Origin: Acidimicrobiia bacterium
GTDB taxonomy: Bacteria > Actinomycetota > Acidimicrobiia > ATN3 > PSLF01
Length of the DNA stretch: 53,096 bases
Reading direction: 5' to 3'
Assembly: GCA_040289475.1 (NCBI GenBank)
Contig: PSLF01000015.1
Span: forward strand, 1 to 53,096
A program made the position numbers and the translations under genes. Under the pieces are notes generated by a model. It worked only from the letters and a program-made list of their open reading frames with translations, was not told the origin of the DNA and searched no databases. Numbering within the stretch: position 1 is the first letter of the stretch; each line of letters starts with the position of its first letter. Shown here piece by piece: positions 29,515-35,040 of this stretch.

Positions 29515-29739
29515 GTGTTACAGTCCGTTCTGGGTCCAGAACGCGTCAAATTCACAACTTTCGATTCCAAGCCAGTCCGAGCTATTCTCAGCTATTTGGA
29601 AGGCACACCCGATCCGGTAGACCTCTTGGTACTGGGAAGCCGTGGACATACCACCCTTCCCAGACCCCACATAGGATCCGTGACATTTTCACTAGCCCAC
29701 CGCGCAGATATCAACCTCTTCGTAGCAGGCGCGGAATAA
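29515..29739 (+). pseudogene. Truncated universal stress protein (C-terminal half)
   Basis: A GTG-started 74-codon frame matches the C-terminal half of UspA-like proteins: LLVLGSRGHTTLPRPHIGSV fits the ATP-binding pattern G-x2-G-x9-G-S. The N-terminal half, which should bear a VDGS-type start and phosphate contacts, is missing, so a normal ~140-aa protein is not encoded. No clear ribosome site precedes the GTG. The frame is open from the TAG of the metallo-hydrolase, but those 32 codons do not look like a Usp N-terminus. Probably a decayed or truncated gene. The exact limit is uncertain. Confidence 0.7.
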
Positions 29740-29800: not shown

Positions 29801-30946
29801 TCAGGCAACAAAGATGGACGTGAAGTACATAAACGCTAGACCTGTTCCCAAACCCCCGGTGATGTGAGGAGCTAGAACAGCGCCGCCACCCGAGGTGAGC
29901 AATCCCCATACCTCTGCTACGACCTCTGCGATTGCACCCAATCCAACTGCCAAGAGCGCTACAGATATAGGCTTCGATGGCGTCAGGCTTCCGATGAGAA
30001 GTCCGCCGAGCGCTGGCAGCCCTGCAATTGCCGCCGCCCACTGGTAAAAGAAAATCGAGCGCGATTTTTTGCCTGCCACAGCCGCTATAGCAACACCTTC
30101 TGAAACATTGTGCACGGCAAATCCCAGCGCCAATAAGCCACCCACGGCTAGGACCCCTGCTGCTTCAGCGCCAGCCACCGCTAGCCCTTCTCCCAGATTG
30201 TGAAGTCCGATCGCCACAGCCAAAGCCCATGCGGCGACCAGAGCTCGATCCTCGCCTCGCTTGGATCCCATCCTCCGAGCCCACTCGTATATGGCCGCGA
30301 AAGAAATCACAGAGACACTTACCACGAGCAGTCGTCCTGCCAGAGGTGCTACAAGCTCTGCCGATAGCTCAAAGGTATCGAAGCTGGACTCAACCCCAAT
30401 GGCCAGCAAAACACCGATAGTAAAGGCCAAGAAAAACTCGCTCGTTTTGTGACCCGATCTCCGGAGCACGGGCCTCAATAGCATTCCCGCTGCGACCGGA
30501 AGAACTCCCATTCCAAGGCCTAGCGGAACATAGCGTTTGAACAAATCCCTCCCAGGGTGGGGGGTCTCCACTGGAAAGTTGAGGGTGTGGACGAGGGTTT
30601 GTCCATCCGCACTCACAAGTTTCAATTCCAATGGTTCGCCTCTTATCCAGGGGTAGTAAAGGTCAATGTCGGCAGTTTGTAGACGCCGAATCTCTAGCCG
30701 GTCGCTGGAAAACTGCCAGTAGGCGCCGTTTATGGCTACTTGAGCTATGTTTACAGGCACACTCCCGCCGTTGCGCACCGTCACAACGATCCGACCTGGC
30801 TTGAGAACTACCCGCTCCACCGATAGCGACTGTGCCACCGAGTCGCCGGTCTTGTGAGACATCCACTTAGGAAGATAGAGCACGATGCCGGCTAACACTA
30901 GAGTGAGGCCTCCCACGAGAAGGGCCCCCACCGTGACCTTCTTCAC
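29801..30946 (-). CDS. ZIP family metal transporter with extracytoplasmic domain
   Basis: Likely imports divalent metal (Zn, Fe or Mn). I chose the GTG at 30946, because its GTGA overlaps the multicopper oxidase TGA; the longer frame to 31030 would overlap that gene. 381 aa: an N-terminal membrane helix, an approximately 110-residue beta-rich extracytoplasmic domain (up to about 140), then about seven hydrophobic segments. ZIP motifs are GLHNLGEGLA and AVHNVSEGVAIA in two consecutive helices, with metal-binding His/Glu pairs. The Ig-like ectodomain is unusual for bacterial ZIPs and is reminiscent of archaeal members (from memory). Translationally coupled with the oxidase, regulated by the DtxR gene of the same operon. 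Confidence 0.85.
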   Translation of the reverse strand: MKKVTVGALLVGGLTLVLAGIVLYLPKWMSHKTGDSVAQSLSVERVVLKPGRIVVTVRNGGSVPVNIAQVAINGAYWQFSSDRLEIRRLQTADIDLYYPWIRGEPLELKLVSADGQTLVHTLNFPVETPHPGRDLFKRYVPLGLGMGVLPVAAGMLLRPVLRRSGHKTSEFFLAFTIGVLLAIGVESSFDTFELSAELVAPLAGRLLVVSVSVISFAAIYEWARRMGSKRGEDRALVAAWALAVAIGLHNLGEGLAVAGAEAAGVLAVGGLLALGFAVHNVSEGVAIAAVAGKKSRSIFFYQWAAAIAGLPALGGLLIGSLTPSKPISVALLAVGLGAIAEVVAEVWGLLTSGGGAVLAPHITGGLGTGLAFMYFTSIFVA

Positions 30947-32001
30947 CCCTCTACCGCCTCGAAGATCCCGATCCAACCTAGCTCGGCGAATTCCGACACG
31001 TGTGCGTGGAACAGGTACTTCCCCGGCCATCTGTATCGGAGCTCCAAGATTGCACGCTCCCCCTGTCCGAGCACAATCGTGTCTGTGGTACCGTCCGGCT
31101 CTAAGCGAGTTCCGGTCATATAAAAGTCGAAGAAATTTGCGTGGGAGTGAAACGAGTTGACTAAGTCGAACTCAGTAATGTTGACGAGGTATATCCGGAC
31201 AAGCTCTCCAACGCGCACCCGAATCGGGTTGCGAAAGTAGTAAAAGGCTTCCGTATTAATCGCATAAAACTCGTTTTTTTCGTCGCCATCGGTGTCGAAT
31301 GCGTTCATCACCATCACCAACTCGTCAGCCGGCGGCCTTTGCGACGCGGGATCTACGATAAATACCCCATAAAGACCCTTGTGAATGTGACGCTTCACAG
31401 GCATCACGTGGCAGTGGTAGAGGTGAAGGCCGAATGGATCTGCGTCGAACTCGTAGACAAAAGTTTGTCCCGTCTCGACGATCTCAAAAACACCGTCCAT
31501 GTCTGCTCGGTGGAACCCATGAAAATGGATAGTGTGCGGATGGGGAGAGGCATTCTGGAAACGAATCCTCAGGTGATCACCTTCTCTAGCCCGAAGCGTC
31601 GGGCCTGGAACCCGGCCATTGTACGTCCATGCTGGAAAGCGCACCCCGGGAGCGATCTCTATCTCGCGATCGGCAGCAAAAATCCGGTACTCCCGAATAG
31701 AGCGGCCGTCATCTGTAGCGGTCATCGTCCCGTAATCGAACTCCCGCAGGTACGACATCGGATCAAAGACTGAAGTGTTATACGCCCCTACCGTGCAGTT
31801 CAAGTCGTGAGACACGACGTAAGGCTTGCGAGACTCGGCCGCATTATCTTGAGTGGAGAAGCTCGTTGCACTCTGCGAACCCACGGCCCGATAAGCCACC
31901 AACCCCGCAAGTCCCGCGGTTCCGCCCCCAAGAGATGCTCGAAGAAGTTGCCGTCTCGTAACCCGCGCTACGAAAGGCCGAATGATCGATCGTCTTCTCA
32001 T
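30943..32001 (-). CDS. Two-domain multicopper oxidase
   Basis: Copper oxidase, exported by the Tat route: RRQLLRASLGGGTAG near residue 16 is a twin-arginine-type signal. Four His-x-His pairs for a trinuclear centre are present: IHFHG, LYHCHVMP, FHSHANFF and YLFHAHVSEF. The Cys/His type-1 copper site is in the first domain (LYHCHVMPVKRHIHKG); the second domain has Ala in the Cys position (HAH). Thus a two-domain oxidase with T1 copper only in domain 1 (type C pattern). 352 aa. Overlaps the regulator and the ZIP gene by 4 bases each. The substrate might be Fe(II), Mn(II) or Cu(I), or nitrite; I cannot tell. Confidence 0.9.
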   Translation of the reverse strand: MRRRSIIRPFVARVTRRQLLRASLGGGTAGLAGLVAYRAVGSQSATSFSTQDNAAESRKPYVVSHDLNCTVGAYNTSVFDPMSYLREFDYGTMTATDDGRSIREYRIFAADREIEIAPGVRFPAWTYNGRVPGPTLRAREGDHLRIRFQNASPHPHTIHFHGFHRADMDGVFEIVETGQTFVYEFDADPFGLHLYHCHVMPVKRHIHKGLYGVFIVDPASQRPPADELVMVMNAFDTDGDEKNEFYAINTEAFYYFRNPIRVRVGELVRIYLVNITEFDLVNSFHSHANFFDFYMTGTRLEPDGTTDTIVLGQGERAILELRYRWPGKYLFHAHVSEFAELGWIGIFEAVEG

Positions 32002-32891
32002 CGCCGAGGGTTCCGTCTGCCCGCCTCAGGGAGACGATGGGCCAACGCTTGATTTTTCGAGCTTGCCTCCTTTGATAAAACCTCGATCCGCACCCTTTGG
32101 GCGAGCCCCCGTGCCAATGGAATCATTCCTCCGTCACCCTCGAGCCACACGGGCCCTCCGTACGGCTCTATATGCGTTATTCGAAACCGGCGATTCGGTA
32201 AGATCCCCAAAGTCACTAAGCGACTGACGGCGTCTTCTTCCTCGTCATCGAGTTCCGAAACCCGAACCACCGAGCCTTCACTAACTGCGTCCAAGCGTCT
32301 GTAAGGGCCCCCTCCTTTCGCTTTGAGCCCAGTTGGCGGCCCCGAACAAAAACCTCGCCGAGACGAAGACCGGTCTCCAGTACGTCCAATCTCATTCGAA
32401 GCGAAAGCCAAGCCGGCTTGACTAGTGATTGTCGAGTCAGATTTGGAGGGAAGAGACTCGGCTGCCTTAGTTGCTTTCCGGCGCCTTTGGCGAGTTGGCG
32501 GTATCCGATGGCCATGCGGATCGCGTTCGGGATAACCCAGGTAAGTATCAATCCGCTCCTCCAGCCGATCGCTGACTACCGCTTCGAGTGCTGCTGCCTC
32601 TGGATGAAGCTCTTCCAAGGAGTAACCCAAGACCTCGTATAGAAATGTCTCGACCAGTCGGTGCTTGCGAACGATCCTTTCAGCAGATGCCCTGCCTTTT
32701 GGCGTGAGACTCACGCTGCCCCTGTGGAGGCGTCGCACCACTCCGTCGGTCTCTAGTCGCCTAAGCATTACAGAGGCAGTAGCCGTGGAAACCTTCAGTC
32801 GCCGTGCCAATGACCCGGTGCTGACATATCCTTTCGAAGCCTCTTCCGTGTAAAGAGCTTTTAGATAATTAGTGATTGCGTTCTTAGACAT
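31998..32891 (-). CDS. DtxR-type metal-dependent regulator with FeoA-like domain
   Basis: Represses genes when loaded with Fe(II) or Mn(II). Winged helix at about 5-65 (STGSLARRLKVSTATASVML), metal/dimer region at about 75-140 (HRLVETFLYEVLGYSLEELHPEA and DPHGHRIP), and a C-terminal FeoA/SH3-like part (about 210-275). Between them is a ~65-residue low-complexity linker with Ser/Arg, longer than in MntR/IdeR, possibly disordered. 297 aa. The start codon 32891 lies inside a perfect palindrome, a likely autoregulatory operator. The gene has no Shine-Dalgarno-like sequence, consistent with a leaderless transcript. Overlaps the oxidase ATG by 4 bases (ATGA). Confidence 0.9.
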   Translation of the reverse strand: MSKNAITNYLKALYTEEASKGYVSTGSLARRLKVSTATASVMLRRLETDGVVRRLHRGSVSLTPKGRASAERIVRKHRLVETFLYEVLGYSLEELHPEAAALEAVVSDRLEERIDTYLGYPERDPHGHRIPPTRQRRRKATKAAESLPSKSDSTITSQAGLAFASNEIGRTGDRSSSRRGFCSGPPTGLKAKGGGPYRRLDAVSEGSVVRVSELDDEEEDAVSRLVTLGILPNRRFRITHIEPYGGPVWLEGDGGMIPLARGLAQRVRIEVLSKEASSKNQALAHRLPEAGRRNPRR

Positions 32892-32900
32892 ATCTAAGAA
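32881..32900. promoter_or_regulatory. Palindromic operator over the dtxR start codon
   Basis: TTCTTAGACATATCTAAGAA has perfect 8-base arms around CATA. The regulator's ATG (complement of bases 32889-32891) lies in the centre. The core (TTAGA...TCTAA) resembles DtxR/MntR-type boxes. With no ribosome site upstream, the site probably overlaps the transcription start, so bound repressor would block initiation of the whole dtxR-oxidase-ZIP operon. A TTTATC hexamer just upstream could be the -10. Confidence 0.65.
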
Positions 32901-32986
32901 GGATAAACGAACAATCTAAACTTGCCTACATCATTGAGCGGTCCAAGCGCTCCTAGATAATAAAAAGAGGTTGGGACTCTGAGTTG

Positions 32987-33472
32987 TTATGAGGCGACGG
33001 TAAGGGCAGCCCTCATACCAGCCCGATAATGTCCCGCAATATTGCAGATGAGCACGTATTTGCCCGGAGTTAGGTCGACGGATTTAGTAGCAGTCATAGA
33101 AGGGCTCAGCTCATCGGGTTCTATCTCGGTGACCACCTCCACAGCGCCACCTTCTTCGACTGTGTCCTGAGGTCCGACCGGAAGCATGTCCGCAGCGAGA
33201 TCAGTTTTGATCACGACAAGTTCATGTGGCATGGTGCCCTCGTTGTGAGCCATGAACGTAACCTTGCCAGCTTTGGCGGACTCTCCCTCGACGCGAATCG
33301 AGTACTCCTTTAGATAGGTTTGGACCGTCATCTCGGTCTTGGAGAGCGAAGGAGACTGAGTGGATTCGGCGGCCCTAGGGGCAGTATTGCTCTTGCAGGA
33401 GACAAATATCGATGCAACTGCCAAAGCCGAAAGCAGGCAACAAGTAGATCGGACGAGTCGTGATAGGACCAT
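32987..33472 (-). CDS. Lipoprotein cupredoxin (plastocyanin/sulfocyanin-like)
   Basis: Blue-copper electron carrier anchored outside the membrane. The start 33472 (MVLSRLV) has a GGAGGTG ribosome site; the longer frame to 33892 is spurious and overlaps the MFS gene. A lipobox IFVSC follows the signal (about residue 25). A T1 copper site is formed by His in MPHELVV and the C-terminal cluster LICNIAGHYRAGM (Cys, +5 His, +10 Met). 161 aa. Placed between MFS (74 bp) and dtxR (95 bp), it may exchange electrons with the two-domain oxidase; that link is inferred from proximity. Confidence 0.88.
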   Translation of the reverse strand: MVLSRLVRSTCCLLSALAVASIFVSCKSNTAPRAAESTQSPSLSKTEMTVQTYLKEYSIRVEGESAKAGKVTFMAHNEGTMPHELVVIKTDLAADMLPVGPQDTVEEGGAVEVVTEIEPDELSPSMTATKSVDLTPGKYVLICNIAGHYRAGMRAALTVAS

Positions 33473-33546
33473 TATCTTCACCTCCGTCACGTTGGGAGGC
33501 CCCACTAGCAGATGCTGCAACGCTACTAATGATCTGTCCGCTCCGT

Positions 33547-35040
33547 CTAATGCTTTGAGCGCTTGGCTCCGCCCTGCGATGCCAAAAGCGCCAGCATCTG
33601 CTGAGCGTCCTGGACAATTGTGAAGCGAGCCCGCCACAGAATCAGGCTTCCTGCAACTATCGGTGGGCTCACTAAAATAAATGCGCGCCGAAGAGAATGC
33701 GTGAGATCTGAGAGCAGTCCGACCACAGCGGGCGCCAACGCGGTGCCAAACACGGCCGTCACTAGGGCGAAAGCTGATGTACCGACCCCCCGGGAGCTCG
33801 CAGGCACGACATCCATTACGGAGGCCCTCAAGGTAGGGGGAACGGTTGCTATGAGAACGACACCAGCGAATTGGAACGCTATGCTCACCCAAACAACACT
33901 AACTATCCAGGAAACAAAAAAGGCAGCAGCTCCCCCCAAGATCATCGCCACCGACATGTCGATCCGTGCCGCGTAACCTTTTTTGGACAATAACCTGTCT
34001 GCGAATGATCCACCCCAGAACGTGCCAATAATTCCCGCCACCCCCAGGATTCCCGCTGTGACAGTCGCCGCCTTCGTGAGACTCATTCTTGAGTACCGCT
34101 GGTGAAAAACTGCTAACCAGTACCCAATCCCTTGAACAGTAAAGAGTAGGGTCGCCGCACCGATCAGGATGTAGCGCATGGTGCGAATCCGCAACAAGGC
34201 AATGATTTCTCTTATCAGATCCGCCGCTGCATACCGCAGAAAAGACCAGAGTCCTAGCGTAGAAGGATCTTCTAGCTCCCGTGATCCTGACAATTGAGTC
34301 TCGCCTGCTGCTTCGAAGGTGTCGCTTAGCTGGGAGTGTCGGGGCCCGACCATCGTTTTGTCACCCTGGCCCTCGTGCGGGGATCGCTCGCTATTTGGAC
34401 TTGGGATTCTCGAATTTTCACTTCGAGGTTTCAACGAATCCAGATCGGCCTCTCCCCTTTTTGGCTCCCTTAGCCGAAAGGCCATAATCGCCACCAAAGA
34501 TCCCGGCATACCTACAAGCAAAAACGCCCAGCGCCACCCCAACCGAGACCCTATGTAACCGGCCAGAGCGAGGCCTACTCCTTGGCCCACGAAAAACATC
34601 ACTTGCTGCACCGAGAACACCCGGCCGCGGGTATGCGGAGGGAAGTAGTCACCAATCAAAGACGTGGCTGCTGGGTCGGCTAGGGCTTCCCCGAATCCCA
34701 TCACGCCCCTCGCCACCAGAAGACTCGGATAGTTGAAAGCTGCAGCCGACAGCGCCGACAGCGCGCTCCAGGAGGCAATGGTGTATCCGATAACCCGTCC
34801 TCTCCGGTAATTGTCAGCTATCCATCCAGCTGGGATCGAAGCGAGAACATTGAGAAAAATAAAGGCGAAACCCAACAGTCCCAGCTCGCGATCCGAAACG
34901 GAGAAATACTGGCCGATTAAAGGGAGAACCCCTCTTTGTATTGCGGCGTCGACATTGCCGACAAAACTCACGAGCGCTAGCACTAAAAGCGGAAATGTGT
35001 AGATACTTTCCCGCTTTGGTTCGGTCTTGCCGTCCTCCAC
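33547..35040 (-). CDS. Major facilitator superfamily transporter
   Basis: Twelve-helix permease-like, 497 aa. The MFS signature between helices 2 and 3 is read as GWIADNYRRGRVIG (about 72-85), with typical N-terminal helices (LVLALVSFVGNVDAA) and a central hydrophilic loop (about 200-270) with Ser/Glu. The overall layout resembles spinster-like or multidrug-type exporters. GTG start follows directly after an in-frame TGA. It precedes the cupredoxin on the same strand by 74 bp. The substrate is unknown; a role in metal or siderophore export is only a guess from context. Confidence 0.88.
   Translation of the reverse strand: MEDGKTEPKRESIYTFPLLVLALVSFVGNVDAAIQRGVLPLIGQYFSVSDRELGLLGFAFIFLNVLASIPAGWIADNYRRGRVIGYTIASWSALSALSAAAFNYPSLLVARGVMGFGEALADPAATSLIGDYFPPHTRGRVFSVQQVMFFVGQGVGLALAGYIGSRLGWRWAFLLVGMPGSLVAIMAFRLREPKRGEADLDSLKPRSENSRIPSPNSERSPHEGQGDKTMVGPRHSQLSDTFEAAGETQLSGSRELEDPSTLGLWSFLRYAAADLIREIIALLRIRTMRYILIGAATLLFTVQGIGYWLAVFHQRYSRMSLTKAATVTAGILGVAGIIGTFWGGSFADRLLSKKGYAARIDMSVAMILGGAAAFFVSWIVSVVWVSIAFQFAGVVLIATVPPTLRASVMDVVPASSRGVGTSAFALVTAVFGTALAPAVVGLLSDLTHSLRRAFILVSPPIVAGSLILWRARFTIVQDAQQMLALLASQGGAKRSKH

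Follow-up and report, generated by a model that had tools for sequence, protein, structure and literature searches.

In the ammonia-oxidising archaea (AOA), key players in the nitrogen cycle, the gene of a multicopper oxidase (MCO1) is known to adjoin that of a ZIP permease, as in the pair NVIE_000600 and NVIE_000590 (Reyes et al. 2020, PMC7785015). The genes present and modest responses to copper have led to this conserved pair being interpreted as a system for copper uptake, a model proposed in PMC7785015 and repeated in PMC7819960; when copper is limiting, expression of the pair in Nitrososphaera viennensis increases modestly (log2 0.81 and 1.33), and the motif associated with that limitation is TTCSGSMTTTGWACYANT (PMC7785015). 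Marine AOA are reported to be without iron-specific transporters, Nmar_1130 being among the few generalist candidates (PMC6776035), and so a role of the pair in Fe or Mn would fill a gap. A precedent for oxidation-aided gain of Mn comes from Pseudomonas putida GB-1, in which Mn oxidation increases the Mn content of the cell (PMC3798386). While the archaeal pair was already known, a bacterial triad of regulator, MCO and ZIP, an operator shared between bacteria and AOA, and an altered metal sensor are further aspects that emerge from the locus described here; no description of them was found in the literature searched (subscription journals lay outside the search), and the same search returned no paper that placed a DtxR box together with the MCO-ZIP pair.

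The locus lies in a window of 53,096 nucleotides from an Acidimicrobiia bacterium (contig PSLF01000015.1, positions 1 to 53,096), and its five genes share the minus strand with short gaps between them. In the direction of transcription, these encode an MFS transporter (33547–35040; Pfam MFS_1), a probable cupredoxin lipoprotein (32987–33472), a DtxR/MntR-family regulator (31998–32891), a two-domain MCO (30943–32001) and a ZIP-family transporter with a GTG start (29801–30946). An earlier note on this DNA had described the last three as joined by ATGA and GTGA overlaps, and the junction sequences bear this out, with the regulator stop and oxidase start reading GCGATGAGAAG at 31998–32001 and the oxidase stop and ZIP start reading GGGGTGAAGAAG at 30943–30946. 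That note had also proposed a coupled unit of metal oxidation and uptake. The metal-linked oxidase and importer stood, with strong synteny, but the five-gene extent did not, as the unit proper is three genes, i.e. regulator, MCO and ZIP.

The oxidase carries a Tat-type signal, RRQLLRAS, followed by two cupredoxin domains, matched by Pfam Cu-oxidase_3 at residues 114–219 and Cu-oxidase_2 at 229–347. Type-1 copper is confined to domain 1, just as the earlier note had stated, for the residues C197 and H205 are present in 40 of 40 relatives (the axial residue in the window oxidase being L210) and the equivalent position in domain 2 is Ala in 38 of 38. We take a two-domain MCO with type-1 copper in domain 1 to be of type C, a type expected to form trimers with trinuclear copper sites and to reduce O2. 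In the same alignment, all eight His of the trinuclear site are conserved, and the site is complete. Oxidases 38–46% identical were considered as members of the same class; five of their loci were opened, no such ZIP lay nearby, and they were therefore set aside as another subfamily.

The ZIP is divergent when judged by Pfam, reaching 11.3 bits against the Zip cut-off of 35.1, and this divergence is why a Pfam Zip search of the source genome came back without a match. The product is nonetheless a ZIP-family protein, with transport predicted, on the basis of its similarity to ZupT, its two HNxxEG motifs and its modelled fold. The motifs, HNLGEG and HNVSEG, lie in two helices of an eight-helix core, and H249, N250, E253, N280 and E283 are invariant in an alignment of 29 sequences; in a Foldseek search, the top PDB matches of the AlphaFold model (pLDDT 85) are BbZIP, with probability 1.00. 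Between an N-terminal anchor helix and the core, approximately residues 40–123 (30578–30829, minus strand) form the Ig-like external domain that the earlier note had recognized; it is all-beta in the model, with pLDDT mostly 86–97, and Foldseek pairs it with FlaG and FlaF of the archaellum. This ectodomain is kept in the ZIPs of all relatives of the pair.

Conserved synteny in relatives, on which the earlier note had staked its reading, is strong. The MCO and ZIP genes adjoin in members of nine phyla, AOA included, and in 36 of the 37 loci with enough contig; the pair is also carried by named plasmids from Rhodococcus, Rubrobacter, Deinococcus and Stanieria. Because the arrangement recurs in so many genomes, it is not due to chance. 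The note's mention of such neighbours in AOA likewise held good, both in the published pair (PMC7785015) and in all 30 of the closest AOA loci compared here. The regulator gene is directly upstream of the pair in 16 bacterial loci; in several others it is divergent or lies a short way downstream. Other neighbours vary: FieF/MntE-like CDF exporters are encoded nearby in several relatives, in keeping with a Mn/Fe role, several genomes and plasmids have CDF, P-type ATPase and ArsR-family genes in the vicinity of the pair, and on the Rhodococcus plasmids, where the exact operator described below is absent, CopC and CopD genes flank it.

Spanning the start codon of the regulator gene is a perfect 20-bp palindrome, TTCTTAGA-CATA-TCTAAGAA (32881–32900), which resembles a DtxR box and constitutes a predicted DtxR-type operator at the regulator's own start. 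Its core, TTAGN6CTAA, immediately precedes the first gene of the operon in 29 of 44 bacterial loci; it is present in 15 of 17 regulator-first loci (0.03 expected) and 14 of 24 oxidase-first loci (0.04 expected). When bacterial loci are pooled, 31 such sites fall in 4.4 kb of upstream sequence as against 4 in 586 kb elsewhere, and the decoy CTAAN6TTAG has no sites. The core also precedes the pair in 30 of 30 of the closest AOA loci (0.22 expected), although these genomes share ancestry and therefore do not represent 30 independent events; soil-type AOA mostly have a near-match only, e.g. TTAACCTAGGCTAA. In its outer bases, the site agrees with TTAGGNNNNCCTAA, a shortened IdeR/DtxR consensus proposed in PMC8464063. 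By its sequence, then, TTAGN6CTAA is a DtxR-type operator core, to which binding is predicted. As a mark of a genome-wide regulon, the palindrome was considered and rejected; the exact sequence has a single copy in the genome, near-matches (8, vs 9 in the control) are no commoner than in the control, and no regulon is therefore claimed. A generic scan for promoters and terminators gave no more than chance.

The regulator scores above the Pfam cut-offs for the DtxR N domain, the DtxR C domain and FeoA, and a winged helix, a dimerisation domain and a C-terminal FeoA/SH3-like domain mark it as a DtxR/MntR-family protein, also in an AlphaFold model. Among its bacterial relatives, the primary metal site reads D/N, E/D, E, H, a set that PMC10317159 assigns to MntR, and the best match is an MntR model; judged by these residues, the relatives' regulators carry MntR-type (Mn) ligands. 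In the window regulator, the primary site is N8, A100, E103 and A104 and is thus incomplete, the changed residues A100 and A104 being encoded within 32580–32594 (minus strand). All other regulators read keep E, D or C at the first of these positions and H at the second, which correspond to E99 and H103 of MntR and to C102 and H106 of DtxR, in a numbering based on MntR and DtxR reference sequences whose columns agree with ungapped alignments to solved chains. Because two primary-site ligands have been lost, the response of the window regulator is probably altered, acting via the ancillary site, whose residues H77, E81 and H96 are retained, or no longer depending on metal. A linker insert of ~55 residues (32310–32474, minus strand), which is predicted to be disordered and is missing from relatives, separates the DtxR core of the protein from its FeoA domain. 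The earlier note had mentioned neither the operator nor the damaged metal site. As a case of signal change in a DtxR-family sensor, this regulator offers a natural experiment.

The operator, together with the MntR-type ligands of the bacterial regulators, speaks for acquisition that responds to Mn/Fe and weighs against the model of copper uptake in AOA. We judge, with modest confidence, that the three genes form a DtxR/MntR-repressed operon for Mn/Fe acquisition in which the oxidase makes metal available to the ZIP importer. According to this model, the regulator would bind TTAGN6CTAA in the promoter of its own gene and, once the cell has enough Mn(II) or Fe(II), shut off itself, the exported MCO and the ZIP; when metal is scarce, the Tat-exported, O2-reducing oxidase would act at the cell surface beside the ZIP ectodomain, with a metal ion or a ligand that binds metal as electron donor to its type-1 copper, and the ZIP would carry the divalent ion inward. 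Metal might be freed by oxidation of a chelator, of a competing cuprous ion, or of metal that is then re-reduced at the transporter. Since the permease is a ZIP, unlike that of Fet3-Ftr1, the oxidase is more likely to free metal than to hand over an oxidised ion directly. We infer that a metal causes the repression, that this metal is Mn or Fe and that oxidase and ectodomain touch, and the substrate of the oxidase is likewise inferred. An oxidase seems at odds with an importer of divalent ions, which is a point against a Mn/Fe role, and the copper genes of the Rhodococcus plasmids, the copper response of N. viennensis, the near-matches of soil AOA and the lost ligands of the window regulator have also been counted against it. 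A broader reading, which is possible but speculative, is that Mn/Fe-responsive, oxidase-coupled ZIP import extends across bacteria and AOA, governed throughout by the same kind of DtxR-type operator, that the oxidase docks on the ectodomain, and that in the lineage of the window the regulator gave up its primary site and responds to a different signal, though it has kept the operator. A DtxR-type promoter site common to bacteria and AOA provides a direct and cheap way to test which metal is served.

Copper uptake or homeostasis, in which the oxidase would convert Cu(I) to Cu(II) and the ZIP would import it or handle copper, has behind it the published MCO1-permease model with its modest induction under copper limitation (PMC7785015, PMC7819960) and the copper genes adjoining the pair on Rhodococcus plasmids; it is unlikely, however, given that a DtxR-type operator rather than the copper-limitation motif precedes the pair in bacteria and AOA, that the regulators are of MntR type, and that a copper enzyme made to gain scarce copper would be costly. 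The CDF, P-type ATPase and ArsR-family genes that accompany the pair in several of the genomes and plasmids would suit detoxification, with extracellular levels of reactive Fe(II), Mn(II) or Cu(I) brought down by the oxidase and the ions balanced by the ZIP and nearby CDF exporters. Yet a repressor-type Mn/Fe operator predicts expression at low rather than high metal, and the partner that stays constant, the ZIP, is of importer type, making this quite improbable. Chemistry on nitrite, NO or hydroxylamine, like that of NirK-related enzymes, is most improbable of all; although the best NCBIfam match of the oxidase is the copper nitrite reductase model and a hydroxylamine role has been discussed in the literature for AOA oxidases, the 97.8 bits of that match fall far under the NirK cut-off of 296.3, the eight-His trinuclear oxidase site is complete where NirK would have a single type-2 copper site, and a metal transporter is the constant partner.

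There is also little probability that all five genes act together, the MFS protein exporting or importing a chelate and the cupredoxin passing electrons to or from the oxidase. Their common direction and short gaps, and the cupredoxin genes that flank the pair in two other lineages, fit such a unit, but no MFS relative adjoins the unit in the other loci compared, and the MFS gene is best regarded as a neighbour only. Membership of the cupredoxin, as the earlier note had it, finds a partial parallel in four genomes from a single Actinomycetota family and in two Chloroflexota, where a cupredoxin gene adjoins the unit; there, though, it lies on the opposite side of the operon and encodes other cupredoxin types. 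The window protein has a copper loop, CNIAGHYRAGM, and barely passes Pfam (SoxE 5e-5, Copper-bind 4e-4). Its gene ends 95 bp before the regulator gene, the operator at the regulator start separates it from the three genes, and it is probably on a separate transcript from the operon.

Turning from these alternatives back to the proposed Mn/Fe acquisition operon, its parts compare with known systems in different degrees. The oxidase is closest by sequence, among solved structures, to the two-domain MCO of PDB 3gdc (366 bits), presumably from Arthrobacter sp. FB24, which likewise has type-1 copper in domain 1; for PDB 7rab, a literature search turned up no paper. The regulator shares domain order, operator core and the ancillary residues with MntR, DtxR and IdeR, but differs in the Ala at two primary positions and in the long linker insert. 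With yeast Fet3-Ftr1, the unit shares the pairing of a multicopper oxidase at the cell surface with a permease for metal; it is not of that type, in which a ferroxidase feeds Ftr1, having instead a ZIP and a two-domain rather than three-domain oxidase, and channelling or ferroxidase activity is here hypothetical. A close likeness is to the MCO1-ZIP module of AOA, to which the locus belongs by virtue of adjacent MCO and ZIP genes of these families: the window oxidase is 54–57% identical to ZIP-adjacent AOA members of the same oxidase family, and gene order, a ZIP with an ectodomain and, in most AOA promoters, TTAGN6CTAA are held in common. What sets the bacterial loci apart is that their operon often includes the regulator, and, whereas the published reading of the archaeal pair is copper uptake, Mn/Fe is the metal suggested by the operator and by the regulators of the bacterial loci.

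The unit at issue lies entirely on the minus strand and runs from a DtxR-family regulator (31998-32891, domain searches) through a two-domain multicopper oxidase (MCO; 30943-32001, domain searches) to a ZIP transporter with a GTG start (29801-30946, HNxxEG motifs and AlphaFold model), with a probable cupredoxin lipoprotein (32987-33472, weak domain match) and an MFS transporter (33547-35040, domain searches) located upstream. Gene calls and domain searches confirmed these five genes as named in the earlier note, and the ATGA overlap between regulator and oxidase and the GTGA overlap between oxidase and ZIP are present in the sequence. In the domain search of the window proteins the ZIP scores under the Pfam cut-off; its assignment is secure, because alignment finds the HNxxEG motifs conserved and the AlphaFold model (pLDDT 85) has BbZIP as its structural match. 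In that model the predicted Ig-like external domain follows the first helix and precedes the ZIP core. Residue comparison agrees that type-1 copper in the oxidase, of the kind called "type C", is confined to domain 1, and finds the trinuclear site complete. Downstream of the ZIP gene, a 74-aa reading frame (29515-29739, plus strand) matches the C-terminal half of universal stress proteins (Usp, 1.4e-6) and is likely a remnant. Five WhiB matches place the window's genome in Actinomycetota; among the control genomes, WhiB was matched in the actinobacterial one only.

Relatives were gathered by oxidase search, and the loci were then read around each oxidase, in Chloroflexota, Gemmatimonadota, Bipolaricaulota, Methylomirabilota, Bacillota, Actinomycetota and Nitrososphaerota, with further relatives in the window's own phylum and plasmid-borne ones in Rhodococcus, Rubrobacter, Deinococcus and Stanieria. 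Of the 37 loci with room for it, 36 have a ZIP of the same family after the oxidase. The two genes are also neighbours in ammonia-oxidising archaea (AOA), as the earlier note suggested, with all 30 of the closest loci showing the pair. In 16 bacterial loci the regulator gene sits directly upstream, and in others it is divergent or just downstream; Rhodococcus opacus pROB01 has the gene order of the window, with ends adjoining or overlapping. In the oxidase tree the window groups (support 97/82) with three genomes from its own phylum whose gene order is identical, and the AOA members form a separate group. The window's class also has an oxidase subfamily, 38-46% identical; none of its five loci that were read (L088-L092) has such a ZIP nearby. 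Membership of the MFS transporter, which the earlier note had proposed, fell away, as its gene is not kept beside the unit in other loci. Support for the cupredoxin is scattered: plastocyanin-like genes lie immediately 3' of the ZIP gene in four genomes from a single Actinomycetota family and in two from Chloroflexota (L055, L057, L060, L061, L026, L038). FieF/MntE-like CDF exporters turn up repeatedly as neighbours. On Rhodococcus plasmids (L135, L137) a gene for a Rieske (2Fe-2S) protein comes just past the ZIP, and in Rubrobacter (L133) one lies near it; the MCO-ZIP pair also has CbtB-type (cobalt transport) genes beside it in Rubrobacter and in the cyanobacterium Stanieria (L133, L138).

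Spanning the start codon of the window's regulator is a perfect palindrome, TTCTTAGACATATCTAAGAA, the sole exact copy in the 1.97 Mb genome. When its core, TTAGN6CTAA, was scanned upstream of the first operon gene in relatives' loci, it was found in 15/17 regulator-first loci (expected 0.03) and 14/24 oxidase-first loci (expected 0.04). Pooled, 29 of 44 bacterial loci have a site, with 31 sites in 4,400 upstream bases, while 585,616 bases elsewhere in these loci contain 4; a decoy with the halves exchanged (CTAAN6TTAG) occurred 0 times upstream in these 44. The scan found the core in 30/30 AOA loci, one of them at a contig edge; among more distant AOA, 4 of 12 have the exact site and several others near-matches. 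These counts are not independent events, since the AOA genomes are related and the Rhodococcus plasmids carrying the pair lacked the site on scanning. AOA MCO1-ZIP promoters (L101-L130) often have two such palindromes, spaced 19 bases apart, that directly adjoin a TATA-like stretch, and soil-type AOA (2.8-3.4 Mb genomes; L140-L144) mostly have a one-mismatch or weaker site, e.g. TTAACCTAGGCTAA, in the same place.

The primary metal site of the bacterial relatives' regulators reads D or N, E or D, E, H, a set that on its residues is MntR-type by the published criterion (PMC10317159); among NCBIfam models they match an MntR best, at a score below its cut-off. MntR/DtxR reference numbering was checked against solved chains. 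In ungapped alignment to solved structures, the window's regulator has N8, A100, E103 and A104; every other member read has E/D/C and H, respectively, in place of the two alanines. It retains second-site H77, E81 and H96, and about 55 residues, predicted disordered, are inserted ahead of its FeoA domain. As judged from sequence, the altered protein may act independently of metal, may be tuned to its second site or may just be decaying, although plain decay is made less likely by the intact frame and the perfect operator. It is the only intact DtxR-family gene found in its genome; a second (G000:C2:36493; L093 1273-1802) is split in two by a frameshift within the metal-binding domain.

The best-supported reading of these sequence features is that the unit would serve Mn/Fe-controlled metal acquisition: low metal would release the repressor, the exported oxidase and ZIP would then be made together, and the oxidase would act beside the ZIP's ectodomain. 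The oxidase substrate is the weakest step. Because ZIP transporters move divalent ions, a chelator or competing cuprous ion fits better as substrate than the cargo itself. Mn oxidation raises cell Mn in Pseudomonas putida GB-1 (PMC3798386), so an oxidase can in some way serve uptake. Family searches of the window's own genome found no match to FeoB, three ZnuA-type binding proteins and a sole Nramp match split across two frames (G000:C6:36818-37901; L099, L100), which is either a broken gene or an assembly error.

The MCO-ZIP pair is already published for AOA, where it was interpreted as copper uptake (PMC7785015, PMC7819960) and where MCO1 induction under copper limitation was modest (PMC7785015); the papers searched contained no description of the bacterial triad of regulator, oxidase and ZIP, the shared DtxR-type operator or the window's altered sensor. 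The copper-limitation motif of the AOA study (PMC7785015) differs from the operator found here. The TTAGN6CTAA core agrees in its outer bases with the shortened IdeR/DtxR consensus, TTAGGNNNNCCTAA (PMC8464063).
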